The notes under the pieces were generated by a model. The model worked only from the letters and a program-made list of their open reading frames with translations, was not told the origin of the DNA and made no database searches. From positions 1 through 25,433 of the IMG/VR virus record IMGVR_UViG_3300032331_001686: a DNA stretch of 25,433 nt. One strand, written 5' to 3'. This DNA comes from a virus. The translations under genes were made by a program, and so were the position numbers. Below are positions 3,426 through 25,433 of the stretch, piece after piece (within the stretch, counting starts at the first letter, position 1; each line of letters begins with the position of its first letter).

Positions 3426-3620
3426 ATGGCTACAAACAAATATTCAGAATTCACAGCAATAGTAGAAGCAATGGAAAGCGATTTCGAAAAGTTCTACGAT
3501 AAAGAAGTTGGTGCCGCAGGAACTCGCGTTCGCAAACACTTACAAGAATTGGCTAAGTTATGTAAAGAAACTCGTAACGATGTTACCGCAGTAAAGAACG
3601 CTCGCAAAGAAGTAAAATAA
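3426..3620 (+). CDS. Histone H1/Hc1-like small basic protein
   Basis: A 64-residue, lysine/arginine-rich, largely helical protein. The order 'FEKFYDKEVGAAGTRVRKHL', then 'LAKLCKETRNDV' and 'KNARKEVK', matches what I know of the bacterial histone H1/Hc1 family (Chlamydia Hc1 N-terminal part and the short Bacteroidetes H1-like proteins), without the long Lys/Ala/Pro tail of Hc1. It should bind DNA. Roles could be condensing phage DNA, organising the infected nucleoid or altering transcription. A strong ribosome binding site (AAAAGGAGA) sits seven bases before ATG. The next gene begins one base after the stop. Confidence 0.8.
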   Translation: MATNKYSEFTAIVEAMESDFEKFYDKEVGAAGTRVRKHLQELAKLCKETRNDVTAVKNARKEVK

Positions 3621-7509: not shown

Positions 7510-8040
7510 ATGATACGCATTATCAAAACAGTAGTAAACTGTCTAGTTCTACTAGCAGTAATAGTTGTAGCACATCAAGCAGTAACACAGAAGTTTCAAA
7601 GACTAAAAGAAGCACGTGAATCAGTAAGTCCGATTACTGCCGATATGAGACAAAAACAATTAGATTGCCTAGCTCGTAACATCTACCACGAGGCCGGATA
7701 CGAACCATTCGAAGGTAAAGTAGCCGTAGCGCAAGTCACAATAAACAGAACAGAAAGCGGTCAATTCCCTTCTGACATCTGTCAAGTTGTATACCAAAAA
7801 AATATTGTATACGAAAAAGTTCTATGCCAGTTCAGTTGGTATTGCAATTCAGCATCACTACAAAAACCAATGAATGGTCCAGTTTATACCGAAAGTATGG
7901 CAGTTGCCAAAAAGGTATTGTTAGAAGGATTCCGAATTGACAGCGTTAAATCAGCATTGTATTATCATGCAGACTACGTCAATCCAAAATGGGGTAAGAA
8001 ACCTGTAACAAAAATCGGCCACCATATCTTTTATAACTAA
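7510..8040 (+). CDS. SleB-type cell wall hydrolase (Hydrolase_2 family), membrane-anchored
   Basis: A 176-residue protein. Residues 7-24 form a hydrophobic N-terminal segment that acts as signal anchor, so the catalytic domain should face the periplasm. The domain opens with 'CLARNIYHEAGYEPFEGK' (E61 is the likely catalytic glutamate), continues with 'VAQVTINRTESGQFPSDICQ' and 'CQFSWYC', and ends with 'ALYYHADYVNPKW' and 'KIGHHIFY', the order of the SleB / cell wall hydrolase family of peptidoglycan lytic enzymes. In a phage it may serve as endolysin of signal-anchor type or help remodel the wall. The ribosome binding site is AAAGGAGA. Holin-like partners are not certain; the next gene encodes a small membrane protein. 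Confidence 0.92.
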   Translation: MIRIIKTVVNCLVLLAVIVVAHQAVTQKFQRLKEARESVSPITADMRQKQLDCLARNIYHEAGYEPFEGKVAVAQVTINRTESGQFPSDICQVVYQKNIVYEKVLCQFSWYCNSASLQKPMNGPVYTESMAVAKKVLLEGFRIDSVKSALYYHADYVNPKWGKKPVTKIGHHIFYN

Positions 8041-12122: not shown

Positions 12123-14033
12123 ATGAGCAAAATCATCGGTATCGACTTAGGTACAACAAATAGCTGTGTAGCAATCCTAGAAAACGGCATTGCTAAAGTA
12201 ATTGAAAACAGCGAAGGTGCTAGAACAACACCATCAATCATTGCGTATACAGACAAAGAAATTTTAGTAGGCGCAACAGCAAAACGACAAGCAGTCACAA
12301 ATCCAAAGAATACTATCTACGCAAGCAAGCGTCTTATTGGACGTAAGTTTGACGAAAAAGAAGTACAAAAAGACATTGACTTAATGCCATACACTATTGT
12401 CAAAGCAGACAACGGTGATGCATGGATCGAAGCAAATGGCGAAAAGTTAGCGCCACAACAAGTGTCAGCTGAAGTACTTCGCAAAATGAAAAAGACTGCT
12501 GAGGACTATCTTGGACACGAAGTAACACAGGCTGTTATCACAGTACCTGCTTACTTCAATGATAGCCAACGTCAAGCTACTAAAGATGCGGGCAAGATCG
12601 CCGGCCTAGAAGTTCTACGTATTATCAACGAGCCAACAGCGGCCGCCCTTGCATATGGCGTAGATAAAGCAGACAAGAAAGATCGCAAGATTGCTGTATA
12701 CGACTTAGGTGGTGGTACATTTGATATTTCAATTATCGAAATTGCCAATATTGAAGGTGATAAACAAATTGAAGTACTTTCAACAAACGGTGATACATTC
12801 TTAGGCGGTGAAGATTTTGACCAAGCCATTATGGATCACTTAGTTGACGAGTTTAAGAAAGACAGTGGTATCGATTTAAAGAGCGACATGCTTGCCCTAC
12901 AGCGTTTGAAGGATTCTGCTGAAAAGGCTAAAATTGAATTGTCAAGCACACAACAAACCGCAGTTAACTTACCATACATCACAGCTGATGCAAGTGGTCC
13001 TAAGCATTTGAATGTAACAATCACTCGTGCTAAGTTTGAACAGATGGTTGAGAAACTAATTGAGCGTTCAATTGAGCCATGTAAGATTGCTATGAAAGAC
13101 GCTAAGGTCACAGCCGCAGACATTGACGAAGTTATCCTAGTCGGTGGACAAACACGTATGCCTAAAGTACAAGAAGCAGTTGAGAAACTATTTGGCAAGG
13201 CTCCACGTAAAGACGTTAACCCAGACGAAGCAGTTGCCGCTGGCGCCGCAGTACAAGGTGCTGTTCTAGCAGGTGACAAGACAGACGTATTGTTATTGGA
13301 CGTGACTCCATTAACATTGGGTATTGAAACAATGGGCGGTGTGTTTACCAAGTTGATTAGTAAGAATACTACTATTCCAACTAAGCACTCACAGACATTC
13401 TCAACAGCAGAAGATAACCAACCAGCTGTAACTATTAAAGTTGCACAGGGTGAACGTGAGTTGTTTAAGTACAACAAACTATTGGGAGAATTTAATCTAG
13501 AAGGTATTAACCCAGCACCTCGCGGAACACCGCAGATTGAAGTTACACTTGACATTGATGCTAACGGTATCTTGAATGTAAGCGCCAAAGATAAAAACAC
13601 TGGCAAGGAAAATAAGATTACCATTAAGTCAGATAGTGGATTGACCGAAGCTGAAATTGAACGTATGGTTCGTGAAGCTGAAGAAAACGCAGAGTCAGAT
13701 AAAAAGCAAAAAGAATTAATTGATGCTCGTAATCAAGCCGAAGGTACTGTACATAGTATTACTAAAGACTATGAAGAATACAAAGGTCAAATGACTGAAG
13801 AAGAAAAGACCAAGTTCGAAGAGCAATCTAAGAACGTAACTGAGGCATGTAAAGGCGAAGACAAAGAGGCAATTGACAAGGCAGTGCAGGCATTTTTTGA
13901 AGCCGCTCAAGTTGTGTTTGAGAAGAAGCGTGTTGCTGAAGAATCAAAGAACAATGCTCCTAACCAAGCCGATACTACTGAGCAAACAGTTGATGCCAGC
14001 TTCACAGAAGTTGACAAAGACGAAAAGAAGTAA
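12123..14033 (+). CDS. dnaK: Chaperone DnaK (Hsp70)
   Basis: A full-length 636-residue Hsp70, close to the 638 of E. coli DnaK. The nucleotide-binding domain starts '[15 protein letters not shown]' and contains '[20 protein letters not shown]', '[13 protein letters not shown]' and '[16 protein letters not shown]'. The interdomain linker is [10 protein letters not shown] (around residue 388-397). The substrate-binding domain and helical lid follow, ending in an acidic tail like that of proteobacterial DnaK. It is a DnaK type, not HscA. No dnaJ or grpE is visible, so host co-chaperones are presumably used. hsp20 and clpS follow. It could help fold capsid proteins or protect the infected cell. 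Confidence 0.98.
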
Positions 14034-14045
14034 TATAATAAACAT

Positions 14046-14093
14046 GTAGGGCGCCTAAAAGGGCCCTACAAAGTTCTTGCTTAATAAAGGAGA
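14046..14093 (+). promoter_or_regulatory. Structured hsp20 leader (hairpin plus conserved tail)
   Basis: GTAGGGC (14046-14052) pairs perfectly with GCCCTAC (14063-14069); a G (14053) is bulged and CC/GG closes a TAAAA loop. TTCTTGCTTAAT and AAAGGAGA follow, as in the dnaK leader. The stem differs at three consecutive pairs from the dnaK one while pairing is kept. It may also terminate or attenuate transcription from dnaK. Confidence 0.7.
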
Positions 14094-14098
14094 CTAAC

Positions 14099-14515
14099 AT
14101 GCAATTAAGAACTGTAGATCCGGCCGCTCTAGCCGCAGTGAGTAGAGCACTTGTAGGTTTTGATCGTTATTTCAATAACGTCAATCACGTAAATGGAAAT
14201 TATCCTCCACACAATATCGTAAAGTATGATGATACACATTATGGTATTGAAGTAGCAGTTGCTGGTTTCAGTAAAGATGAAATCACTGTAGAAGTTGATC
14301 AAGATCAACTTATGATTACAGGTAAGAAGGCAACGACTGCTGAAGGTGTAGAATATCTACATCGCGGTTTAGCCGCACGTGATTTCGAACAACAATTTAC
14401 TCTTGCTGAGTATATGGAAGTTCGCGGTGCTGAAGTTAAGGATGGTATGCTTAAGATTCAAATTGAGCGTATTGTTCCAGAAGCATTGAAACCACGTCAA
14501 ATCGAAATTAAATAA
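14099..14515 (+). CDS. Small heat-shock protein, Hsp20/IbpA-like
   Basis: A 138-residue alpha-crystallin-domain chaperone. The N-terminal part contains 'ALVGFDRYFNNV' and 'YPPHNIVKYDDTHYGIEVAV', followed by the domain hallmark 'AGFSKDEITVEV' and 'YLHRGLAARDFEQQFTLAEY', and the C-terminal I-x-I motif 'RQIEIK'. The order matches IbpA/IbpB-type proteins, which hold unfolded proteins for DnaK and ClpB. Small heat-shock proteins are also known in T4-like cyanophages. It lies between a leader hairpin and a strong terminator-like hairpin, and probably shares control with dnaK. Confidence 0.95.
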   Translation: MQLRTVDPAALAAVSRALVGFDRYFNNVNHVNGNYPPHNIVKYDDTHYGIEVAVAGFSKDEITVEVDQDQLMITGKKATTAEGVEYLHRGLAARDFEQQFTLAEYMEVRGAEVKDGMLKIQIERIVPEALKPRQIEIK

Positions 14516-14518
14516 ACA

Positions 14519-14540
14519 AAAGGGGAGGCAACTCCCCTTT
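14519..14540 (+). terminator. Strong GNRA-loop hairpin terminator
   Basis: AAAGGGGAG (14519-14527) pairs perfectly with CTCCCCTTT (14532-14540) over a GCAA tetraloop. Nine pairs, with A-rich 5' and T-rich 3' arms, directly after the hsp20 stop. Confidence 0.82.
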
Positions 14541-14556
14541 AACTAAAAAGAAAAAT

Positions 14557-14859
14557 ATGCCAAGTACAGATATTCAAATCGACGAAAAGATTAAAGTTAC
14601 TATTTCAGAACCAAAACGTTGGAAAGTAATATTGCTCAATGACGATACTACTCCGATGGAATTTGTTGTATCTTTACTCATGGAAATCTTTAGACACAAT
14701 CCGGAAACTGCTGAACGTGTAATGATGGACATTCATACAACTGGTTCAGGCATTGCAGGTGTTTATAGTTTTGAAATCGCTGAAGCAAAAGCAGTCGAAG
14801 CAACTAACCAAGCAAGAAACCAAGCATACCCACTTCAAATCAAATTGGAGGAAGAATGA
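14557..14859 (+). CDS. clpS: ClpS-like adaptor protein
   Basis: A 100-residue homologue of ClpS, the adaptor that delivers N-degron substrates to ClpAP or ClpCP. The core 'WKVILLNDDTTPMEFVVSLL' contains the NDDTTPM residues that form the N-degron pocket; 'IFRHNPETAERVMMDIHTTG' and 'GVYSFEIAEAKA' follow. A phage adaptor could redirect host proteolysis. It begins after the hsp20 terminator without a clear Shine-Dalgarno (only A-rich sequence), and its stop overlaps the heme oxygenase start (ATGA). Confidence 0.92.
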   Translation: MPSTDIQIDEKIKVTISEPKRWKVILLNDDTTPMEFVVSLLMEIFRHNPETAERVMMDIHTTGSGIAGVYSFEIAEAKAVEATNQARNQAYPLQIKLEEE

Positions 14860-15407
14860 GTCTAAGAGACCTTACACACGATGCACACAAAAATGCTGAA
14901 ACACAGCCATTTGTAAAAGTTTTATTTTCTGGAAAAATCAATCCAAAGCTATACGCAACATTTTTAAAAAATCAGCACCCGTGTTATGAAATACTAGAAG
15001 TATGTGCTATGCCACATCAACTACTACATGGGCTTCCTGACATTCGACGAGCTCCGTCGATTCTAGCAGACTTCCAAGAATTATGGTCAGAAGCAGACGG
15101 TGATCCACAAATGCTTCCAACAACTGATCAATACATCAAATATATTCTAAGTATCAAAGATCAACCAGAACGTCTTATGGCACACATTTATGTACGTCAT
15201 ATGGGAGATCTTGCTGGTGGACAAATGATCGCCAAACGTGTTCCCGGATCTGGACGTATGTACCAGTTTGAAAATCCCGATGCACTTAAAGCCGCTATCC
15301 GTGAACGTATAAATGACGACATGGCTGAAGAAGCAAAAGTTTGTTTTCAATTTGCCGCAGACATGTTTAAAGACATGATGGAATTAGTTGAGTTTGTAGA
15401 TGAGTAA
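14856..15407 (+). CDS. ho1: Heme oxygenase
   Basis: A 183-residue heme oxygenase, which opens heme to biliverdin IX-alpha, CO and iron. The proximal heme histidine is H11 in 'LTHDAHKNAE'. The distal helix with the GxxxGG pattern is 'YVRHMGDLAGGQMI' (112-125). It is shorter than cyanobacterial HO1 (about 240) because the family's C-terminal tail is missing, as in other phage versions. It overlaps clpS by four bases and the bilin reductase by eight, so biliverdin should pass straight to the next enzyme. Electrons would come from a ferredoxin not encoded here. Confidence 0.93.
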   Translation: MSLRDLTHDAHKNAETQPFVKVLFSGKINPKLYATFLKNQHPCYEILEVCAMPHQLLHGLPDIRRAPSILADFQELWSEADGDPQMLPTTDQYIKYILSIKDQPERLMAHIYVRHMGDLAGGQMIAKRVPGSGRMYQFENPDALKAAIRERINDDMAEEAKVCFQFAADMFKDMMELVEFVDE

Positions 15408-16080
15408 AGTCTGGGATAAACTGATTGAAATACAACACCTTCTAGAAGATAATTTTAGTCGAACTGGGATAGAGATTAACGAGCCCGGAATGGAACGATT
15501 CAATCAACCTGGTTGGGTTAATCGTGTTTGGACTAGTTTTAATTATCGTCGAGCACACATAGATGTAGTTGATGCTCGTGAAACTAAAGGCCTTTGGATG
15601 ATGCACTGTTGCATTTTCCCACATATACACAATCCTGCTCCGATTTATGGATTTGATGTGGTAGCAGGTAAGAATAAAATTACTGGCTGTTTCCATGATT
15701 ATAGCCCTACAGTAAATGTAGCACATCCTATGTCAACATGGTTTGCACACGAAGTTAGCAAACTCGAATGGCGTAGAGAACGTGCTTTGCCTGATTGGGC
15801 ACAGCGTATTTTTAGTAAAAATATGGTAGCCGCAGGCAACGTACAAAGCGATGAAGAATTAGATCAAATGCTAGAAATGGCTAAACGTACTTTAGCACAC
15901 TACTTAGACACAGTAGGCGAAACTAATAATACTGTAGCTGACACAACGCACGAACAGAATTATTACGCAATAAATCAAAAACAAAACCCACATACTCCTC
16001 GTGTAATGGCTAGTTTAGGGCTAGATGAGGAAGATGTGCGTGTTTTCATACAGGAATGCTTGTTCCCCGAAATACGCTAA
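15400..16080 (+). CDS. Ferredoxin-dependent bilin reductase (PcyX/PebS/PcyA family)
   Basis: A 226-residue protein of the FDBR family, which reduces biliverdin to phycobilins with ferredoxin electrons. The core 'PIYGFDVVAGKNKITGCFHD' with D86 matches the catalytic aspartate region of PcyA and PebS, and 'LWMMHCCIFPHIH' precedes it. Later come 'WRRERALPDWAQRIFS' and the ending 'FIQECLFPEIR'. Length is near that of PebS and PcyX. In a phage without photosystem genes PcyX (phycoerythrobilin synthase from phage contigs) is the most attractive subtype, but I cannot distinguish the subtype by eye, so no symbol is given. Confidence 0.9.
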   Translation: MSKVWDKLIEIQHLLEDNFSRTGIEINEPGMERFNQPGWVNRVWTSFNYRRAHIDVVDARETKGLWMMHCCIFPHIHNPAPIYGFDVVAGKNKITGCFHDYSPTVNVAHPMSTWFAHEVSKLEWRRERALPDWAQRIFSKNMVAAGNVQSDEELDQMLEMAKRTLAHYLDTVGETNNTVADTTHEQNYYAINQKQNPHTPRVMASLGLDEEDVRVFIQECLFPEIR

Positions 16081-16089
16081 ATATTTACT

Positions 16090-17583
16090 ATGCGTATACT
16101 TGACATAATCCAATTAAATGAATTTGCTCCGCCGAGTGGGCAAGAAGACCTGTTTCAGCAATTAGCAACTATTGCCCAGGAAACACAGCCTGGTGATCCG
16201 TTTCATGAAAAAGCTATGAAGCTGATGCAAGCAGTACTTAAGAAAGTCGGTGATGTTGCTGTTCAACCTGCACCAGTTGCTCAAGAACCACAGCCTGCAC
16301 CAGTTGCTCAAGAACCAATACCTGCAGAAGAACCAGTACCTGCAGAAGAACCAGTACCTGAAGAAGAACCAGTTATTGCAGAACGTGCTCCATCTAAAAA
16401 AACAGTAGCACAACCGGATGATTTAGTATGGGAAGAATATCTTAATACTATTGCCGATCCAACAGCGAGAGCAAAGATTGCAAAAGACCCGCATATTAAA
16501 GCGAGTATTTCAATATTCATCAAAGCATACGAATCTAAAAAAGAAACGGCTAGAAAAGAACTCAACGATCTTGCAGGCGACGTTTTAAGTAGAATCTCTA
16601 AAGATGGTGCAAGTGACAGCGAAAAAGAATCTTTGATTGCTATTTTTGCCACAAATAATGTTCCTGAAGAACATATGAAGTTTTTCCTACAAGGCGCAAA
16701 GGCAGGAAAAATTATTGACATGTCAAGTTTAGTAAATTCTTATAATGGTAAAATAGATGATCATGTAAGACAACCATATCGTGCTATTTTTAGCAAAGTT
16801 ATTGGAAATTTCTTTAACCTAGCAGATGGTATGCGAACTGCCGGTAATATCGGCCCAGGTGAGGTTGCATTTGTACTGTTAGGTAATCCTGCAAAGAAAA
16901 TGAACAAAGGCGATTTAGAAGTTGGTAATGAGTCCTTTGAAGTTAAAGCATCGAGCGATACTCCAGGCAAACCTAAGAAGGATGGAACTCCTGGCGCAAG
17001 CAAACCAAACGGTGCTGTATTCGGTGCTAAGGTAAATCAAAAACCAGCAAGCGCATGGCCTATTGTACAAGAGATTTTAAACAAGTATGGTATAGAGCGT
17101 ACTACACGTGAAGTTAAAGATGCTAGTTCGCCAACCGGATTTAAAGAATTAGAAAGATTTAAAATTAATTCTTCGGGAATGATTGATTTAAATGCAGAAT
17201 TAGATAACCTACGTATGCCAAAGGCAAAACGTGCGAATTTAATGGCTGATATTTTAGAGCAATTATTTCCAAAAATTGTGAAACAAAATAAAAAGGATTT
17301 TGTTCAACATGTCGCGCTTACAATGGATCCGAAAACTGGACATTTTCCAACAGAAGATTCTGGCGAGCTAATGAAGCTGTTAGCAAAAACAGCACTAACA
17401 GGCTATAAATTAGAAAAACATAAAGAAAATTTTATATTTTTTAATAAGTCATCTAGAACCTTTTATGTGTTCCGTGGTGATGAAATGGCTGAAGCTATTG
17501 ATGACGGTACAATTCGTCTATTTAAAGGCATAGATTGGAGCGACGGACAATATCCTGCCGCACCAAAAATGTATATTGCCTAA
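16090..17583 (+). CDS. Large phage protein with Pro/Glu repeat and PD-(D/E)XK-like motif
   Basis: A 497-residue protein. A short N-terminal helix region (1-58) is followed by a low-complexity Pro/Ala/Glu repeat (60-95), a helical region (110-250) and an alpha/beta part. There, 'GPGEVAFVLLGN' (E258), 'KGDLEVGNESFEVKAS' (D275, E284, K286) fits the E...D-x(n)-E-x-K arrangement of the PD-(D/E)XK nuclease fold. The function could be a virion-associated or injected nuclease or a genome-end protein; the start MRILDIIQLNEF resembles N-termini of other phage proteins from T4-like marine phages. Family assignment is my motif reading and not certain. The gene begins nine bases after the bilin reductase, past CTAAATATTT. 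Confidence 0.75.
   Translation: MRILDIIQLNEFAPPSGQEDLFQQLATIAQETQPGDPFHEKAMKLMQAVLKKVGDVAVQPAPVAQEPQPAPVAQEPIPAEEPVPAEEPVPEEEPVIAERAPSKKTVAQPDDLVWEEYLNTIADPTARAKIAKDPHIKASISIFIKAYESKKETARKELNDLAGDVLSRISKDGASDSEKESLIAIFATNNVPEEHMKFFLQGAKAGKIIDMSSLVNSYNGKIDDHVRQPYRAIFSKVIGNFFNLADGMRTAGNIGPGEVAFVLLGNPAKKMNKGDLEVGNESFEVKASSDTPGKPKKDGTPGASKPNGAVFGAKVNQKPASAWPIVQEILNKYGIERTTREVKDASSPTGFKELERFKINSSGMIDLNAELDNLRMPKAKRANLMADILEQLFPKIVKQNKKDFVQHVALTMDPKTGHFPTEDSGELMKLLAKTALTGYKLEKHKENFIFFNKSSRTFYVFRGDEMAEAIDDGTIRLFKGIDWSDGQYPAAPKMYIA
16267..16374 (+). repeat. In-frame Pro/Glu/Ala repeat
   Basis: Two types of short direct repeat lie in tandem inside the gene at 16090: CCAGTTGCTCAAGAACCA twice and CCTGCAGAAGAACCAGTA twice. 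They encode PVAQEP and PAEEPV units, a flexible acidic linker that is likely to vary in length between relatives. Confidence 0.85.
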
Positions 17584-17671
17584 TTCCAAGTAATACGTAC
17601 AAATAAACCAGCAATATAATTACAGTCTAGGTCAATGTAAATACTAATGAGACTTAATGGGGAGCGAATCC
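17584..17671 (+). promoter_or_regulatory. Gap before the curli-like cassette with weak promoter-like motifs
   Basis: This 88-base gap is larger than most in the window. It contains TATAAT at 17615-17620 without a matching -35 hexamer, and TGTAAATA at 17636-17643, a late-promoter-like variant. A promoter for the cassette is expected here, but neither candidate is strong. Confidence 0.35.
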
Positions 17672-18154
17672 ATGTCAAAATTAGTAGCATCATTTCTACT
17701 CGTATTTCTGCCAGCGTGTGCAATAGCCGCACCTCTTGCTGACTATACATTTAAAAGTCCAGCCTTTAGCGGTATTGGATATAGCAGTCATGTATTAACT
17801 ATTGAAAATCAAGAATATACAAGACAAAAAGCATGGCGTGATCAAGTTCAAGCCGCATTAGATAAAGCCGCGGCAGACAAACAAAACAGCAACTTACAAA
17901 AGTTTTTAAACAACTTAGAATCACGCATCTATGCACAAATTAGCCAAAACTTAGCGGCTAGTATGTTTGCTAATAGTGGTGCATGTTCAACATCATCGAG
18001 CTCATACAGTGCACCTTGCGGATCATTTGATTTCGAAGGTAATAATATTACATGGTGGAAAACTACTTCTAGCGTAGTTATGCGTGTAACTGATATAGCA
18101 GGGAAACCAACAGAAGTGGAAATTCCCCTAAGCCAATTTCAATTCGGGAATTAA
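17672..18154 (+). CDS. csgF: CsgF-like curli assembly protein
   Basis: A 160-residue secreted protein. Signal peptide 1-19 or so (SKLVASFLLVFLPACAIA) is followed by the CsgF opening 'DYTFKSPAFSGIGYSSHVL', equivalent to the F-x-N-P-x-F-G-G segment that inserts into the CsgG channel in E. coli. The middle is helical (QVQAALDKAAADKQ...), then 'LESRIYAQISQNLAASMF', and a beta-rich end ('VVMRVTDIAGKPTEVEI'). Two cysteines (ACSTSS..APCGS) may form a disulfide absent from E. coli CsgF. ATG at 17672 is chosen because GGGGAG stands seven bases before it. It precedes csgG by four bases. Confidence 0.9.
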   Translation: MSKLVASFLLVFLPACAIAAPLADYTFKSPAFSGIGYSSHVLTIENQEYTRQKAWRDQVQAALDKAAADKQNSNLQKFLNNLESRIYAQISQNLAASMFANSGACSTSSSSYSAPCGSFDFEGNNITWWKTTSSVVMRVTDIAGKPTEVEIPLSQFQFGN

Positions 18155-18158
18155 TTAA

Positions 18159-19328
18159 ATGAAAAAGACACTAATATCCCTATCAGTAATAGCAATGTTA
18201 AGTGGTTGCGCTATGATGCAAACTACTGGAGTACTGGATAAAGATCCTGAAGTTACTAGTCAAATGAAAAATGTTAAAAAGGAATTTGACACTATTCCAT
18301 CACCTGCGGCTGGAAAACCAGTTAGCGTTGCTGTATATAGTTTTACAGATAAAACAGGACAACGTCGCCCACAAGCAAACGTGGCTAGTTTGTCAACAGC
18401 AGTTACACAGGGTGCTGAATCATTCTTAATTTCAGCATTACAAAATGTAGGTAAAGGACAATGGTTTGAAGTAGTAGAGCGTGTAGGTATTGATAACTTA
18501 ACTAAAGAACGTTTAATTATTCGTCAAATGCGTGAAGCTTATGAAGGTGCTAATGCTAAACCATTGATGCCAATGCAGTTTGCTGGTATTATTATCGAAG
18601 GCGGCATTGTAGGCTATGATACAAGTACTACCAGCGGTGGCGCTGGTATGCGCATTTTTGGCATAGGCAAACAAACACAGTGGTCGACAGACACAGTTAC
18701 CGTAAGTTTACGAGCAGTTAGCGTAAACACAGGTAAAGTGCTAATGACTGTTACTGTACAAAAGACTATTCTTAGTACAGGTGACAGTGTAACAGCATTA
18801 AAATTCTTTGATAATGCAACACAGAGCTTTGAGGCAGAAGCAGGCTTAACAATCAACGAACCAGGCACATACGCAGTTAAGGCCGCTACAGAAATGGCTG
18901 TAGTTGAGTTGATTAAAGAAGGCGCTAAAAAAGGTGTGTGGGACTATAAACAAGAGCCAATTCCGGCGATGATTATCCCCCCAGCACCTATAGTACCTGC
19001 TCCCGTAATCAGCAGTGAAGCTAAACAAGAAGTTAAAGTAGAGGAGAAGAAAGATGTCGTGGTTCAATCGCAAACCCAATCCGAAACCAAAACAGAAGCC
19101 GCACCCAGTGCCGCCCCAAAAGAGTTAGAAAAGTTACCAAGTGAAGTGACCTTGAAAGAAGCAGAATACATTTATAAAGAGCCTAATGAAAAGAGTCAAA
19201 AAACTTGGCAGTTTAAGAAAGGAACCGTAGTAACAATCGTAGGAGCAGAAGGCGATTGGATCGAGGTTAGAGACGCAGAGAAGCGTAAAGGATTTGTTAA
19301 GAAGGATGTACTTATTAACAAACAATAA
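18159..19328 (+). CDS. csgG: CsgG-like curli secretion pore with C-terminal SH3-like domain
   Basis: A 389-residue outer-membrane lipoprotein. The lipobox LSGC puts the acylated cysteine at C17. Residues about 53-262 match the CsgG core: 'VAVYSFTDKTGQ', 'STAVTQGAESFLISAL', 'WFEVVERVGIDNLTKERLI', 'IIEGGIVGYD', 'FGIGKQTQWSTDTVTVSLR' and 'VNTGKVLMTVTVQKTIL'. The nonameric CsgG pore exports curli subunits across the outer membrane. E. coli CsgG ends near here; this protein adds a Pro/Glu/Lys linker (265-330) and an SH3b-like domain (330-386, 'EAEYIYKEPNEKSQKTWQFK', 'GDWIEVRD', 'KGFVKKDVL'), probably periplasmic. It pairs with csgF directly upstream; no csgE is seen. Confidence 0.93.
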   Translation: MKKTLISLSVIAMLSGCAMMQTTGVLDKDPEVTSQMKNVKKEFDTIPSPAAGKPVSVAVYSFTDKTGQRRPQANVASLSTAVTQGAESFLISALQNVGKGQWFEVVERVGIDNLTKERLIIRQMREAYEGANAKPLMPMQFAGIIIEGGIVGYDTSTTSGGAGMRIFGIGKQTQWSTDTVTVSLRAVSVNTGKVLMTVTVQKTILSTGDSVTALKFFDNATQSFEAEAGLTINEPGTYAVKAATEMAVVELIKEGAKKGVWDYKQEPIPAMIIPPAPIVPAPVISSEAKQEVKVEEKKDVVVQSQTQSETKTEAAPSAAPKELEKLPSEVTLKEAEYIYKEPNEKSQKTWQFKKGTVVTIVGAEGDWIEVRDAEKRKGFVKKDVLINKQ

Positions 19329-19330
19329 GG

Positions 19331-19364
19331 TGTTGTTTTTCCAACAGTGTAAATTTTTTTACAC
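19331..19364 (+). terminator. Double hairpin after csgG, likely terminator
   Basis: TGTTG (19331-19335) pairs with CAACA (19342-19346), and GTGTAA (19347-19352) pairs with TTACAC (19359-19364) around a T-rich loop. Alternatively AGGTGT (19328-19333) pairs with ACACCT (19361-19366). The region separates csgFG from the fibre genes. Confidence 0.55.
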
Positions 19365-19393
19365 CTAAAGATAACGGAAAAATAACAGCAGAG

Positions 19394-19493
19394 TATAATT
19401 TATTAAGATGTAACATTAAATAATTTTGTAGCGAGAACATAACCGAGGAGAGATCCTCAAGGAACTTGATTGTGAATAGAAAGCAATCATTTT
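19394..19493 (+). promoter_or_regulatory. Possible promoter and structured leader of the curlin-like gene
   Basis: TATAAT at 19394-19399 could be a -10 box, but no good -35 stands 17 bases upstream. If used it gives an unusually long leader for this genome (about 88 bases). The leader folds locally: GAGGA (19445-19449) pairs with TCCTC (19454-19458), and TTGATTG (19466-19472) with CAATCA (19484-19489). No clear Shine-Dalgarno precedes the ATG at 19494; GGAG at 19447-19450 is in the first stem, so the leader may regulate translation. Confidence 0.4.
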
Positions 19494-20348
19494 ATGAAGA
19501 TGGATAAAAGTATGAAAGGCGCTGGTGGGTTGTCGAGAAAATTACTCACTATTCTGGTGTTGTCTGCAATGTCAACATTGGGACATGCGGCTGATAATAG
19601 CATTTACATTGACCAATCTGGCGATTTCGCTAACGTTACGATTAATCAAGACGGGGCTGGTAACCAAGTAAAAGGCTTAACATCAGCAGTTTCTACAAAC
19701 AGTTCAACTGATCCTGCTCTTATTAGAGGTGATGGTGTTAATGTTAATATTAACCAAACTGGAAGTAATAACAAACTAGGTTTAGGAATTGATGCTACTA
19801 TGGGTACTAGCAAGAGTGTTGATTTAACTTATAGTACCGTTAATAGCAGTAACATAAGTGGAAGCAACAACTTGGCAACATTCCAGCTAGGTACTAGTAG
19901 TGCAAGAGCAATTGACACGATTGTTAATGTTACACAACTAAACGGTGGTAACACAGCATACGTAACAATGACCGGCAGTGATAATCAGTTAACTGCTACA
20001 CAAAGCGGTGGTAGTGCTACATTGATTTCTAGTGTGGCTGCAACAGGTACTAGACAAGATATTACAACAGCCGGTGGTACTGGTAACTCTGTTACTACAA
20101 ACTTAACTGGCGATAACGGTAATGTTTATGTTAACGTAATGGGTGCAACTAACACCATTGATATTGCTCAAAGTGGTGCTGGCGGCTCGACAGGGCATCA
20201 AGCATGGATGGATATCAATGGAACAGGTAATAGTGTAACATTAGCACAATCTGGAAATAATCAGGCTAACGTGTTTAATTTAAGAGTCGGTAGTGCTGGA
20301 ACAGCATCTAACACTAATACATATAATATAACACAAACTGCTAGATAA
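19494..20348 (+). CDS. Secreted curlin-repeat-like protein (candidate amyloid fibre subunit)
   Basis: A 284-residue exported protein. The signal peptide covers about 1-32 (positive N-region, 'LLTILVLSAMSTLGHA'). The mature part is Asn/Gly/Ser/Thr/Gln-rich with repeating strands of curlin type: 'NSIYIDQSGDFANVTINQDG', 'GVNVNINQTGSNNKLGLG', 'NTIDIAQSGAG', 'NSVTLAQSGNNQANVF' and 'NTYNITQTAR', i.e. units of roughly N-x-I/V-x-I-x-Q-x-G-x-x-N. Such repeats form stacked beta-arches in CsgA/CsgB. Repeat spacing is less regular than in CsgA. Cargo for the CsgG pore is the obvious reading. Starts at 19494, 19500 or 19512 are possible. Confidence 0.87.
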   Translation: MKMDKSMKGAGGLSRKLLTILVLSAMSTLGHAADNSIYIDQSGDFANVTINQDGAGNQVKGLTSAVSTNSSTDPALIRGDGVNVNINQTGSNNKLGLGIDATMGTSKSVDLTYSTVNSSNISGSNNLATFQLGTSSARAIDTIVNVTQLNGGNTAYVTMTGSDNQLTATQSGGSATLISSVAATGTRQDITTAGGTGNSVTTNLTGDNGNVYVNVMGATNTIDIAQSGAGGSTGHQAWMDINGTGNSVTLAQSGNNQANVFNLRVGSAGTASNTNTYNITQTAR

Positions 20349-20349
20349 T

Positions 20350-20371
20350 GTAAACGGGGTAACCCGTTTAC
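20350..20371 (+). terminator. Perfect GNRA-loop hairpin after the curlin-like gene
   Basis: GTAAACGGG (20350-20358) pairs perfectly with CCCGTTTAC (20363-20371) over a GTAA tetraloop, one base after the stop codon. It could attenuate transcription so that the fibre subunit is made in excess over the genes downstream. Confidence 0.8.
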
Positions 20372-20392
20372 ATTTCTAATAAAAGGTGATGA

Positions 20393-21499
20393 ATGAAATT
20401 CCAAAATACGCTGATTCTAATCTCGATGTTTATCTCGCAGATATCTTACGGTGCAATAGGAACCGTAACGGAACAGGTCAATACCCCTGCATCGATACAG
20501 AGAAAAAATCAAACGCTCACTGGTGCAAAAGGTACTGGTGTGGAAATGGACGATGCAATCAAAACTCAATCAGGGAAGTTAGGAATAACATTCCAGGATG
20601 ATACCCGAGTTCAGGTTAACGAAAATAGTAAACTTGTTATTGACGATTTTGTATACGATCCTAAAACAAAAACTGGTAAACTAGGTGCCAAGATTGCACT
20701 CGGTACTGTTCGCTATGCTAGCGGACAAATTGCTAAAAACGCACCACAGAACGTAGCACTAAGTACACCAACGGCAACTGTAGCAGTACGTGGTACAGAC
20801 TTTACAGCCTCAGTAGACGAACTGGGCCAAAGCACATTTGTATTATTACCTAGCTGTCCAACTGATCGCCCGACCCGCACACTTAAAGATATTGAATCAA
20901 CATGTAAAGTTGGACAGATTGAAATTTTTACAGAAATGGGTAGTGTTATTTTAAATCAGCCATTCCAAGCAACTAAAGTCACCACCAGGATGTTAGCACC
21001 TAGTAAACCTGTAACACTACAACTTAGTGAAAATGCAATTGAAACACTGCTGATGTCCACTCCTGAAGAACTGAAAGCTAGTAAAGAAGATAATCGTAGA
21101 ATAATGAAAGGACCATTAGACGTTGATTTTCTTAAAGAGCAAGGTCTTACTAATGCGTTAGATGATAGCGCAAAACAGTTTTATCAAGATCGTCTTAGTC
21201 AAAACTTTTTAGACAACAGTTTCTTAGCAAACTTATTTGATATAATGGGTAATCAACTTAACGAAAAATTATTAGCTGAAGTTGATAGTATGTTGCCAGA
21301 CTATAAAAAATCCAGTGGTATTACTGTAAGTAAAGATGATCCAACTGTGTCATTATGTCGTGACAACGGTGCTGACCGCATTTGTATTACTACTCCGCAA
21401 ACACAAAACTCAACGCTATATATGACACAAAATAATATAGAGTTTAAAAATCGTGTTAACCAAGGCGGTAACACTATCATTACTATTGTACAAAAATGA
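20393..21499 (+). CDS. Secreted FecR-domain protein
   Basis: A 368-residue protein with signal peptide 1-20 (FQNTLILISMFISQISYG). Residues about 25-175 form a FecR domain: 'GVEMDDAIKTQSGKLGITFQ', 'DDTRVQVNENSKLVIDDFVY', 'KIALGTVRYASGQI' and 'TPTATVAVRGTDFTASVDE'. This fold in the periplasm senses or binds surface components; it lacks the cytoplasmic anti-sigma helix of true FecR. The middle is helical (about 215-310), and the last 35 residues ('STLYMTQNNIEFKNRVNQGG', 'TIITIVQK') look like one curlin-type unit, which links it to its neighbours. It overlaps the next gene by four bases. It could be a minor subunit, nucleator or assembly factor. Confidence 0.88.
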   Translation: MKFQNTLILISMFISQISYGAIGTVTEQVNTPASIQRKNQTLTGAKGTGVEMDDAIKTQSGKLGITFQDDTRVQVNENSKLVIDDFVYDPKTKTGKLGAKIALGTVRYASGQIAKNAPQNVALSTPTATVAVRGTDFTASVDELGQSTFVLLPSCPTDRPTRTLKDIESTCKVGQIEIFTEMGSVILNQPFQATKVTTRMLAPSKPVTLQLSENAIETLLMSTPEELKASKEDNRRIMKGPLDVDFLKEQGLTNALDDSAKQFYQDRLSQNFLDNSFLANLFDIMGNQLNEKLLAEVDSMLPDYKKSSGITVSKDDPTVSLCRDNGADRICITTPQTQNSTLYMTQNNIEFKNRVNQGGNTIITIVQK

Positions 21500-23862
21500 T
21501 AATAACAACAAAGACTGATCAGCGTAACGAACAAATAAAAGACTACTGGCGTAGATTTCACGCTGAAAAACAAGCTCTTTATAAAAAACAAATAATAAAG
21601 GGCTGTATTATCGCACCATTTATTTTTTTGTTACCATATATCTTTGCAATTTTGTTAGTATTGATATCGGGAAAATCTTTTGCTACTGGCTTAGTAGACT
21701 TAAAGTTTGGACAATCACAGATAGCAGACAGTCAATGGAACGTACAGGCTTGTACACAAACAGCGACTTGCCAAATCTATAGTAAGAATCCTGGAACAGT
21801 ATATAAGATTCCTTGGTGGAGTGGACAACTTGCATGGTCGACTGGCGACTATGTTGCTTTTGTAACTACTGGCGATGCTACTAATCCTTACAACGCTATC
21901 CAATACAATGCTAATGGCACACAGAAAGCAGTAATGGGTACTGGACATATTATTAACATGGGTGCGGACTATTTCTTCTTTGTTGGTAATGATAACGATA
22001 CCGGGCAGTTGTTTAGTATGACACAGGGTTTCGCTAACACAAGCGGAGTTACATGGACTGGGACATTAAATCCTACAGTAACACAGGTTAATACATACGC
22101 TACTAATGGATCAACAACACCACTTGCGGCAGGACAAACTGTAGCACCTTCTGCTCCTGTAAGAACAGTAACAGGAACAGCAGTAACATATACAACAAGA
22201 AATGTAGTAAGCGGTAACACTACTACAGTCTATCGTACTCCCGTAACTACGACAACATACAGTGATAATACAACATCTAGTAGCAACGGAACCGAAACAC
22301 TTTATCAAACTCGTGTTACATCTAACGTAGTAACTACTAAAGTTGTTAACGGCGTACTAACAACCACTACAACTCCTATCACTAAAGTTACAACTAATGG
22401 TGTAACTACAGTTGAAGCTAACGGTCAAGCAACTACTACAACACAAAATGTACTACAGGGATTAATTTTCAAAGTACATGACTTTGATGCTTACACTTAT
22501 AGTTGCGGAATATTTGGCTGTGTTAGAAATTTATTAGGGCCATATCGTGTGCCCAGTCTAACTCCAGGTAACTACAGTACAAACTATACAGGCAGAACTA
22601 CTAACGGTATCTATGTTCCAACTAACGGATCATTTCCAAATATGGGAGACGGAACACTTGTAGCTTATACAGGAACTATCACAGCTCCAATAACAACTGG
22701 GCATCCTGCTGGCAGTGTTTATAGATTATATTTTTACAGTAATAGCGATGACGGATTTGTACTAGACATAAACGGCAGTAGAATAATTAATGATCAATCA
22801 ACTAATCAGTGGCAAAGTGTATTTGGTTATACTGCTTCGGGATGGATCGACGTAGTTGCTGGACAAACATACAATCTCGATGCGTGGTATTGGCAAGACT
22901 TAGGCGGGTACGGAATGAAGTTCTATTGGGACTATGGTGCTGGCCGGATGTTAGTTCCTAACTCGGCATTTACCACAGGACGTATTGTAGAAACAACTAC
23001 TATTGATACTACTGGTGTTTCTTATTCTAATGTTAATTTAATAGATATGTCGGGCACTTCGGTTTCAATGTATCCAGATTATGTTACAATTGGTAATGGT
23101 ACTACAGGCGAAATGATATTTGGATCTGGAAGTGCAGTTACTATTAATCAACAGACTAAAGTTGATGTGTGGACTAACAAAACAATCACCGATGGTAATA
23201 AAATTTACATTGACCAAGTTAGTGGAAGTAACAATACAGTTACTATGGACCAGGATGGCAATAAGAATTTAATCAATGCTACTATTAATGGAAATAGCAA
23301 TAATATAATATCTAAACAAGGTACTATTGGCACAGGACAAAACGAGATTAGAATTAACCTCGTTGGAGACAGTAACACACTAGATATCAAACAAGCAAGA
23401 ACTACACAGGGGACTGCCATAGGCACAAACGGACACTATCAAAATGTAGATGTCACCGGCTATAATAACACAGTTACTACACAACAAACTAACACAGGCG
23501 GTGTCGGTGGCCACTACATGGAAACTACAGTTAACGGTAATCAAAATAATATTACTGCTCGTCAAACAGATAACGGTAATAAAATAATGTTTACCAGCAT
23601 CACTGGCAATAACAACACAGTTGACGCTGTACAGAAAGGTACAGGACAACATTATTTAGATACCAAGTTAACTGGCAATAGCAACAGCGTTTCAGCAGTT
23701 CAAGAAGGAACAACAGCTAATCGTGCTACGTTAGACTTGACTAATGCAGGCGGCCCGGCTAGTGTCATTTTACAGCAGAACGGTGGACAAAATGTTACTG
23801 TTACAACATCCTGCGCTACCGCCGGCGGATGTGCGCCAATCACCATAAGACAAGGCTATTAA
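21496..23862 (+). CDS. Large protein with membrane segment, PA14-like domain and curlin-like repeats
   Basis: A 788-residue surface protein. A charged N-terminus (1-33) precedes a hydrophobic stretch (34-57), either membrane anchor or long signal. Residues 65-190 are beta-rich with two cysteines. A Thr/Val/Asn-rich stretch follows (195-320). Residues about 320-490 resemble a PA14 domain ('YRLYFYSNSDDGFVLDINGS', 'GWIDVVAGQTYNLDAWYWQD', 'GMKFYWDYG'), a sugar-binding fold in adhesins. Residues 566-788 are curlin-like repeats ('NKIYIDQVSGSNNTVTMDQD', 'NSNNIISKQG', 'NTLDIKQ', 'NTVTTQQ', 'NNITARQ', 'NTVDAVQ', 'NSVSAVQ'). The repeat start mirrors the mature start of the protein at 19494. It may be an adhesive tip or anchor of the fibre. 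Confidence 0.87.
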   Translation: MIITTKTDQRNEQIKDYWRRFHAEKQALYKKQIIKGCIIAPFIFLLPYIFAILLVLISGKSFATGLVDLKFGQSQIADSQWNVQACTQTATCQIYSKNPGTVYKIPWWSGQLAWSTGDYVAFVTTGDATNPYNAIQYNANGTQKAVMGTGHIINMGADYFFFVGNDNDTGQLFSMTQGFANTSGVTWTGTLNPTVTQVNTYATNGSTTPLAAGQTVAPSAPVRTVTGTAVTYTTRNVVSGNTTTVYRTPVTTTTYSDNTTSSSNGTETLYQTRVTSNVVTTKVVNGVLTTTTTPITKVTTNGVTTVEANGQATTTTQNVLQGLIFKVHDFDAYTYSCGIFGCVRNLLGPYRVPSLTPGNYSTNYTGRTTNGIYVPTNGSFPNMGDGTLVAYTGTITAPITTGHPAGSVYRLYFYSNSDDGFVLDINGSRIINDQSTNQWQSVFGYTASGWIDVVAGQTYNLDAWYWQDLGGYGMKFYWDYGAGRMLVPNSAFTTGRIVETTTIDTTGVSYSNVNLIDMSGTSVSMYPDYVTIGNGTTGEMIFGSGSAVTINQQTKVDVWTNKTITDGNKIYIDQVSGSNNTVTMDQDGNKNLINATINGNSNNIISKQGTIGTGQNEIRINLVGDSNTLDIKQARTTQGTAIGTNGHYQNVDVTGYNNTVTTQQTNTGGVGGHYMETTVNGNQNNITARQTDNGNKIMFTSITGNNNTVDAVQKGTGQHYLDTKLTGNSNSVSAVQEGTTANRATLDLTNAGGPASVILQQNGGQNVTVTTSCATAGGCAPITIRQGY

Positions 23863-24303: not shown

Positions 24304-24953
24304 AACCTACCATAGCCCTGTTCTTGTACGATCCAAAGTGTTCAGTGCAATGTGGCAATGGCATGATACACGCATTGCAATCAGATTACAATTTTAAAAT
24401 TTTCACCATCAATCCACTTGAAGATAGTTTCTTTGACGATGTGGATATAATAGCAGTTCCTGGTGGTATAGGTGATGCCGCATCATTTGATCGCGCATTT
24501 AAACATAATAAACATCGTGTTAAGAAATTTGTCCAGGCCGGTGGCAAATATTTAGGTATCTGTATGGGTGCTTATTGGGCTGGACAGCATTACTTTGATA
24601 TCCTTGATAATGTAGATGCTGTGCAATATATTACACAGCCTGGAACTGATACAAGACGGCCACATGCTAAAGATCTTAAAGTCACATGGAATGGTGCTGA
24701 CACAACTATGTTTTTTTACGATGGGTGTGCTTTAGTTGGTAACGGACAATACGATACACTTGCTACATATACAAATGGTGATGCTATGGCAATAATACAG
24801 AACAATATAGGTGTTATAGGATGCCATCCAGAAGCTGAACCGTTTTGGTATGAAGGTTATACTTGGATGCGTGGCAAGTATACTAATAAACATTATCTAC
24901 TTCTAGACTTTGTAAACCAGCTAAATACTGGATGTTCAAAAAAATCATTTTAA
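24300..24953 (+). CDS. Class I glutamine amidotransferase-like protein (BPL_N type)
   Basis: A 217-residue protein with the flavodoxin-like fold of class I amidotransferases and the DJ-1 superfamily. The nucleophile elbow is 'YLGICMGAYWAG', and 'IIAVPGGIGDAASFDRAF' precedes it. The partner residues appear in 'GVIGCHPEAEPFWY', giving a C-H-E triad. The overall layout ('ALFLYDPKCSVQCGNGMIHA', 'ARRPHAKDLKVTW'-like region) matches the N-terminal domain found in front of, or like, biotin-protein ligase (BPL_N). The real substrate is unknown; no biotinylation domain is present. It overlaps the CHASE2 gene by 22 bases. Confidence 0.82.
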   Translation: MKPTIALFLYDPKCSVQCGNGMIHALQSDYNFKIFTINPLEDSFFDDVDIIAVPGGIGDAASFDRAFKHNKHRVKKFVQAGGKYLGICMGAYWAGQHYFDILDNVDAVQYITQPGTDTRRPHAKDLKVTWNGADTTMFFYDGCALVGNGQYDTLATYTNGDAMAIIQNNIGVIGCHPEAEPFWYEGYTWMRGKYTNKHYLLLDFVNQLNTGCSKKSF

Positions 24954-25433
24954 GCCCATGGACTGCTCTATTAACCTTATCGTTAGTAGTGGGCATACGT
25001 ATTGCAGATCCTACATTTGTTGAAAAAATACGATTAAGTTATTTCGACACACTGATTACAGCCAAAGCTCCTACAGAAAATAATATCTATACAGTTAACA
25101 TTGATGAAGCGGCATTAGACAAATACGGACAGTGGCCATTACCAAGGGTTAACTATGCTGAAATTATTGAAGACCTTTATCATCGTAATGCTGGCCTTGT
25201 TGTTCTCAATGTGCTTATGGCTGAGCGTGATCGCACTGGTGGAGATAGAGATCTTAGTGCCGCTCTTAAAAACTATCCAGTAGTATTAGGATCAGTACCC
25301 AGTAACAAAACAAAAAATACTCCTCGTGTTCCAGGTAGTGCTGTATTAGGACCAGAGTGGTTGGATCAAATCGTACAGTATCCTGGACTTATTGCTAACG
25401 TGCCGCAGTTAGAAAATTCAGCGGCGGGTGTTG
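24932..25433 (+). CDS. CHASE2-domain sensor protein, 3'-truncated by window edge
   Basis: An open frame from ATG 24932 runs to the end of the window (167 codons). It begins with a membrane helix (about 5-23, 'ILSPWTALLTLSLVVGIRIA') and continues with features of CHASE2, an extracytoplasmic sensor domain: 'EKIRLSYFDTLITAKAP', 'IYTVNIDEAALDKYGQWPLP', 'AEIIEDLYHRNAGLVVLNVL', then 'DRDLSAALKNYPVVLGSV'. In bacteria CHASE2 is usually followed by two or three membrane helices and an adenylate cyclase, kinase or diguanylate cyclase; the output domain is outside the window. Confidence 0.85.
   Translation, partial: MFKKIILSPWTALLTLSLVVGIRIADPTFVEKIRLSYFDTLITAKAPTENNIYTVNIDEAALDKYGQWPLPRVNYAEIIEDLYHRNAGLVVLNVLMAERDRTGGDRDLSAALKNYPVVLGSVPSNKTKNTPRVPGSAVLGPEWLDQIVQYPGLIANVPQLENSAAGV

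Follow-up and report, generated by a model that had tools for sequence, protein, structure and literature searches.

A phage-borne curli cassette whose second fiber subunit joins a curlin domain to exchangeable, putatively sugar-binding heads

The virus record IMGVR_UViG_3300032331_001686 is a 25.4-kb contig, analyzed here in its entirety (the window), and its main genes all lie on the + strand. It carries a curli-type cassette in the order csgF, csgG, a first curlin subunit (Cur1), fecR, and a second curlin subunit (Cur2) over positions 17657-23862 of the + strand, followed by a few small genes and then by a CHASE2 gene. We propose that an infected Gram-negative cell probably uses this cassette to display a lectin-bearing amyloid on its surface, for adhesion or clumping. 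The gene identities and order, the homology to curlin and PA14, the exchange of modules, and the parallel with autotransporters described below were read from sequence comparison. The phage curli cassette itself is already known from SAR11 and OM43 phages (2020 to 2022); what looks new is the last fiber gene, with its curlin tail and exchangeable N-terminal modules, and the sharing of such sugar-binding heads with phage autotransporters also appears to be new. A first-pass annotation had placed CsgF, CsgG, a curlin-repeat protein, a FecR-domain protein, and a PA14/curlin protein together on the + strand, and Pfam, family profiles, and Foldseek confirmed all five; the stretch that it marked ended before the CHASE2 gene at 24932, which is a regular part of the cassette. 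The cassette genes and their domains are as follows (pLDDT, predicted local distance difference test).

17657..18154, + strand: csgF, 165 amino acids (PF10614, 1.3e-9, over the gathering score)
18159..19328, + strand: csgG, outer-membrane export pore, 389 amino acids (PF03783, 3.1e-47)
19170..19310, + strand: C-terminal bacterial SH3 domain of CsgG, amino acids 338-384 (SH3_4, 8.3e-9; SH3_3, 2.3e-6)
19494..20348, + strand: Cur1, first curlin subunit, 284 amino acids, with signal peptide and degenerate curlin repeats
20393..21499, + strand: secreted FecR-domain protein, 368 amino acids (PF04773, 1.1e-9)
21496..23862, + strand: Cur2, second fiber subunit, 788 amino acids (AlphaFold2 model and domain map)
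21685..22125, + strand: module A of Cur2, about amino acids 64-210, a well-folded beta-rich domain (pLDDT about 90)
22651..22935, + strand: predicted PA14 sugar-binding domain of Cur2, about amino acids 386-480, with the SDDG motif of PA14 lectins
23188..23859, + strand: curlin domain of Cur2, amino acids 565-788, with beta-strands every 20-25 residues in the AlphaFold2 model
24932..25433, + strand: CHASE2 sensor gene, 5' part, truncated by the contig end (CHASE2, 5.1e-16)

Cur2 is built from a long signal peptide, module A, a beta-rich stalk, the PA14 domain, a disordered linker, and the curlin domain. By sequence alone the PA14 match in the window is weak (0.022), and Foldseek matched the region to the lectin MpPA14 (1.6e-4) and also to Flo5, Epa, and Cea1. 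In PA14 lectins, Ca2+ and sugar are bound by the DcisD (DDG) pair (PMC8092209), and this pair is invariant in 7/7 PA14-bearing relatives. The second cargo of several relatives has PA14 over the cut-off (L024, 1e-9; L026, 3.8e-12; gp018 of the SAR11 phage HTVC008M, 2.7e-6), and others have F5/8C in its place (L028, 1.3e-9; L215, 2.1e-12). Across 20 aligned Cur2 relatives, the curlin tail is combined with module A, module B, PA14, or F5/8C in several arrangements. Module B is 80-89% identical across proteins whose curlin tails share just 37-68%, and curlin tails that are 82-85% identical bear different heads. Conserved heads on diverged tails, together with similar tails bearing different heads, indicate that the heads have been exchanged. 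The Cur2 signal peptide is itself very long (about 63 amino acids, window 21496-21684) with a charged N-region, and a comparable long signal, YWRRFHAEKQALYKKQII, is found on different curlins of L002 and L007, so that signals of this type, too, seem to be a mobile module.

The same heads reach the cell surface by a second predicted route. Scans with modules A and B recovered them also on proteins without curlin and away from fecR, the C-termini of which are outer-membrane barrels (Autotransporter, from 3.7e-9 in L188 up to 7e-22 in L226) with a family profile that matches the EstA autotransporter. Module A of the window type is found on three of these autotransporter-type proteins (L185, L188, and L191). 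Those with passenger modules A, B, and F5/8C include the following.

L188:3929-6277: autotransporter-type protein
L226:3914-7654: autotransporter-type protein
L236:3914-6736: autotransporter-type protein
L207:3914-7264: autotransporter-type protein
L185:3932-6271: autotransporter-type protein

The csgG gene is also present on 6 of the 16 autotransporter contigs, and two of the autotransporter contigs (367 and 164 kb) carry the T4 gp23 capsid gene. Since outer-surface display is the sole property common to both export routes, the shared purpose of the heads would be binding outside the cell. Full-text searches of an open-access library turned up no report of the module exchange or of the sharing with autotransporters.

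The curlin assignment of both subunits is based on family profiles. Their single-sequence Pfam scores fall just under the cut-off (E values of 0.004 and 0.002), and a simple curlin regular expression, with only two strict matches per protein, was discarded as too weak. The Cur1 family profile (54 homologues) matched curlin 8C50 at 2.8e-25 and the E. coli CsgA fibril 8ENQ at 3e-5, with unrelated proteins appearing from 0.018 (near 0.02), and the profile of 19 second-subunit tails matched 8C50 at 3e-10 and nothing else. In the AlphaFold2 model of Cur1 (mean pLDDT, 80), beta-strands repeat in a regular pattern.

CsgG has the lipobox LSGC, and its conserved core (amino acids 53-263) aligned over the full length with the solved structures of E. 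coli CsgG (2.9e-43). A Pro-rich linker precedes the SH3 domain, which is expected to lie on the periplasmic side; no SH3 tail was found on CsgG of HTVC008M or of the Methylophilales phage Melnitz, or in the seven extended cellular CsgG proteins scanned. CsgF begins with a hydrophobic signal and the stretch LADYTFKSPAFSG. A phmmer search of CsgF against solved structures returned no CsgF match, and its assignment as the companion of the CsgG pore comes from the Pfam match and from its position. As the first-pass annotation had noted, CsgE, CsgC, and CsgD had no match among the window open reading frames scanned. All three are also missing from Alphaproteobacteria (PMC3521004), and their absence therefore rules out the enterobacterial type and not curli itself. 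The possibility of a hidden CsgE was rejected, as no small gene without assignment inside the cassette is conserved.

A scan of viral contigs yielded 75 csgG loci, for which counts are limited to loci with enough flank; these loci were all drawn from a single collection and cannot be treated as independent natural samples, and several are near-identical (62 distinct CsgG sequences). Within them, csgF lay within 800 bp upstream of csgG in 74 of 74 loci, a curlin gene was present in 64 of 65, fecR in 58 of 58, and CHASE2 in 41 of 43, and the Cur2 start overlapped the fecR stop (ATGA), as in the window, in 46 of 63. The first-pass reading had been staked on linkage of csgFG to curlin-like genes and on an intact contig; the linkage is nearly universal, and the region is not chimeric, as dozens of independent contigs show the same gene order.

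In FecR, hydropathy indicates that the N-terminal signal peptide is the sole hydrophobic part, with no later transmembrane segment. The usual FecR anti-sigma regulator has an inner-membrane segment between its cytoplasmic and periplasmic parts. With no membrane segment after its signal, the window protein thus does not qualify as a typical membrane regulator of the FecR type. CHASE2, a regular cassette member, is followed in a full-length relative (L016; CHASE2, 6.5e-38) by a cyclase of the adenylate/guanylate type (8.9e-14); the cyclase half lies outside the contig and is known from relatives.

We interpret the cassette as a phage-borne curli (type VIII secretion) system of alphaproteobacterial type. 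Sec would export the subunits, after which both curlin proteins would pass the CsgG pore with CsgF; Cur1 would build the fiber, and Cur2 would join it via its own curlin repeats, with its PA14 lectin and module A facing outward. FecR and the CHASE2 cyclase probably act at the periplasm, as sensors or modulators of the process. By binding sugars on neighboring cells or particles, the exchangeable heads would cause infected cells to stick or clump. Fiber formation, sugar binding, adhesion, and a benefit to the phage are what we infer here, and we favor surface display of a carbohydrate-binding amyloid over a lysis pore because exchangeable sugar-binding heads recur on autotransporters of related phages. 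The sugar-binding heads and the autotransporter parallel likewise support the adhesion or aggregation of infected cells that the first-pass annotation had suggested. Occurrence of the same heads on autotransporters suggests that phages more widely remodel the infected-cell surface for adhesion. More tentatively, we speculate that large T4-like phages might make infected bacteria sticky with a coat of lectins, drawing on a stock of interchangeable sugar-binding modules that, mounted on curli or autotransporters, anchor these cells to new prey or to particles.

Several observations weigh against surface display for adhesion. No clumping was seen in Melnitz-infected OM43 cultures (PMC9004378), which counts against the simplest form of the proposal, but Pfam sees no PA14 in the second curlin of Melnitz, and HTVC008M is therefore the better test. 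The curlin repeats are degenerate, the PA14 region of the Cur2 model has low confidence, and the Cur2 slot in some relatives holds a plain curlin without lectin. As to the beta-solenoid that the first-pass annotation expected of the repeats, the modeled strands of Cur1 repeat regularly, but a Foldseek search of the model gave no match below 0.001. The absence of CsgE among the scanned open reading frames also leaves pore gating unexplained.

The same exporter and cargo would be required by a protective fiber coat that masks the receptors of the infected cell from competing phages, a superinfection block put forward previously (PMC9599517). Several loci have strict sigma-70-type promoters upstream, which also favors such a block. 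We regard it as rather unlikely, as it leaves the exchangeable lectins and their recurrence on autotransporters unexplained, unless the lectins bind the glycans of the cell itself.

A lysis aid, in which a gated outer-membrane pore of CsgG and CsgF helps to depolarize or open the envelope late in infection, has been put forward for Melnitz (PMC9004378), and the first-pass annotation had likewise considered envelope opening before lysis. We consider this role improbable. It is favored by the lack of a detectable CsgE plug and by the CsgG constriction, which in most copies lacks the aromatic residues found in E. coli. However, alphaproteobacterial CsgG adjoining curlin genes has a constriction that is just as non-aromatic, so that this trait did not arise as a phage change, and we dropped the idea that phage CsgG became a lysis pore by losing an aromatic gate. 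Moreover, curlin genes are linked in 64 of 65 loci, a separate SleB-type cell-wall hydrolase is encoded at 7510-8040, and a lectin cargo is irrelevant to lysis; the sugar-binding cargo and the autotransporter parallel both disfavor envelope opening.

Even less probable, in our view, is a role in nutrient uptake, in which an open CsgG pore admits larger molecules to the periplasm and FecR is an iron-linked regulator (PMC7029224 and PMC9599517), since the window FecR is secreted with no membrane segment after its signal, unlike the usual anti-sigma regulator, and the cargo is left unexplained. An assembly artifact or decaying, functionless host genes can practically be dismissed. Although the contig measures only 25 kb and breaks off within the CHASE2 gene, dozens of contigs have the same order, and the frames stay open in 62 distinct CsgG sequences.

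In the CsgG tree, the window falls in a clade of 27 viral rows (support, 96/99) apart from HTVC008M and Melnitz, and all viral rows cluster together, Hyphomonas being their sister (99/95), although the Hyphomonas branch is long and its placement unsure. CsgG from five contigs assigned to bacterial metagenome-assembled genomes (L092, L094, L095, L096, and L103, under Rhodobacteraceae, Flavobacteriaceae, Pirellulales, and Pelagibacter) lies inside the viral clade; these are probably mis-binned phage contigs. No gp23 capsid or T4 portal gene was found in the 25 kb of the window. Both genes are present on 353-kb and 289-kb contigs bearing related cassettes, which supports the T4-like reading of the window and with it the first-pass claim of a curli-type exporter plus cargo in a T4-like phage.

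The genes 5' of DnaK in the window encode ribonucleotide reductase, glutaredoxin, TauD, radical SAM, IscU, and IscA; a SleB-type hydrolase, an exonuclease, S21, and MazG are also encoded 5' of the cassette, and DnaK, Hsp20, ClpS, heme oxygenase, and bilin reductase then stand ahead of it. Three features of this region are listed below.

7510-8040: SleB-type cell-wall hydrolase (PHROG endolysin)
14011..14039, + strand: sigma-70-type promoter, perfect TTGACA-17-TATAAT, upstream of hsp20
14856-16080: heme oxygenase and ferredoxin-dependent bilin reductase (PcyA/PcyX-like), directly 5' of the cassette region

From the hsp20 promoter on, tightly packed same-strand genes extend as far as Cur2, and strict sigma-70-type promoters across all viral loci number 68 on the + strand and 0 on the - strand. 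The T4 late promoter ATAAATA is rarer than expected in the window (3 versus 10.9 expected) and precedes csgF in 3 of 75 loci, hsp20 in 25 of 70, and dnaK in 21 of 39. An Rfam scan found no RNA families and hence no glutamine riboswitch of the Melnitz kind, and the gene at 16090-17583, upstream of csgF, had no Pfam match, so that no histidine kinase precedes csgF.

Upstream of viral cassettes, ClpS is found in 64 of 68 loci, heme oxygenase in 43 of 68, and DnaK in 38 of 68. The DnaK/Hsp20/ClpS group spans 12123-15404 of the window, with a full-length DnaK above the NCBI DnaK cut-offs; Hsp20/ClpS are near the curli cassette in 70-71 of 77 viral loci and DnaK in 39 of 77. Heme oxygenase and bilin reductase pairs are known from aquatic phages, where linkage to curli is not mentioned (PMC11480375). 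A small histone H1-like protein is encoded at 3426-3620 (Hc1, 2.8e-18). Downstream of the cassette there are often genes that, judged by eye from sequence, are glycosyltransferase-like and LpxH-like phosphatase genes (L030:17174-18202 and L055:15544-16428, with relatives in 10-13 loci), perhaps reflecting further surface remodeling.

Phage curli have been a puzzle since 2020, with exporter genes but without convincing cargo or purpose. A curli-associated protein was found with csgF and csgG in SAR11 myophages (PMC7029224), the order csgF, csgG, csgA/B, fecR, second csgA/B, and adenylate cyclase in podo- and myophages (PMC9599517), and a curli operon in Melnitz (PMC9004378); the first-pass view that the complete set was unknown in phages is thus wrong, as both Melnitz and HTVC008M carry all six genes. 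A lectin-amyloid fusion as second cargo, present also in cultured HTVC008M, gives the system a testable role, and HTVC008M with SAR11 provides the cultured test system.

The pelagiphage type VIII secretion module (HTVC008M gp014-gp019) has the same six-gene order, csgF-csgG-curlin-fecR-curlin-CHASE2/adenylate cyclase, and its gp018, although annotated as hypothetical, joins PA14 to curlin like Cur2. In contrast, the window has an SH3 tail on a CsgG of a separate clade, larger heads (module A plus PA14), and a neighborhood with DnaK, Hsp20, ClpS, heme oxygenase, and bilin reductase, and it is without the histidine kinase next to csgF of the podovirus form. Melnitz shares the csgF-csgG-curlin-fecR-curlin-cyclase order (computed on Melnitz-3) but, unlike the window, has no SH3 on CsgG and no PA14 by Pfam in its second curlin. 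Bacterial curli loci (E. coli and alphaproteobacterial csg) have CsgG, CsgF, and curlin subunits in common with the window, which has both FecR and CHASE2-cyclase, whereas these occur in only 4 and 3, respectively, of 80 cellular csg loci, mostly inside the viral clade. FecR and the cyclase have been stated not to belong to bacterial curli operons (PMC9599517). Contrary to that statement, Hyphomonas sp. TMED17 has a csgF-csgG-curlin-fecR-CHASE2/cyclase operon (L093:9477-15500) among ordinary chromosomal neighbors on a 705 kb contig, so that this version exists in bacteria, yet 76 of the 80 cellular matches are without fecR. The PA14 lectins of adhesins (Marinomonas MpPA14 and yeast Flo5 and Epa) have the fold and DDG pair of Cur2, the lectin of which is, unlike theirs, fused to a curlin amyloid domain. 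Finally, type V autotransporter adhesins of related phages carry as passengers the same modules A, B, and F5/8C that occupy the Cur2 slot, and display them by a C-terminal barrel, whereas Cur2 would depend on curlin and CsgG.

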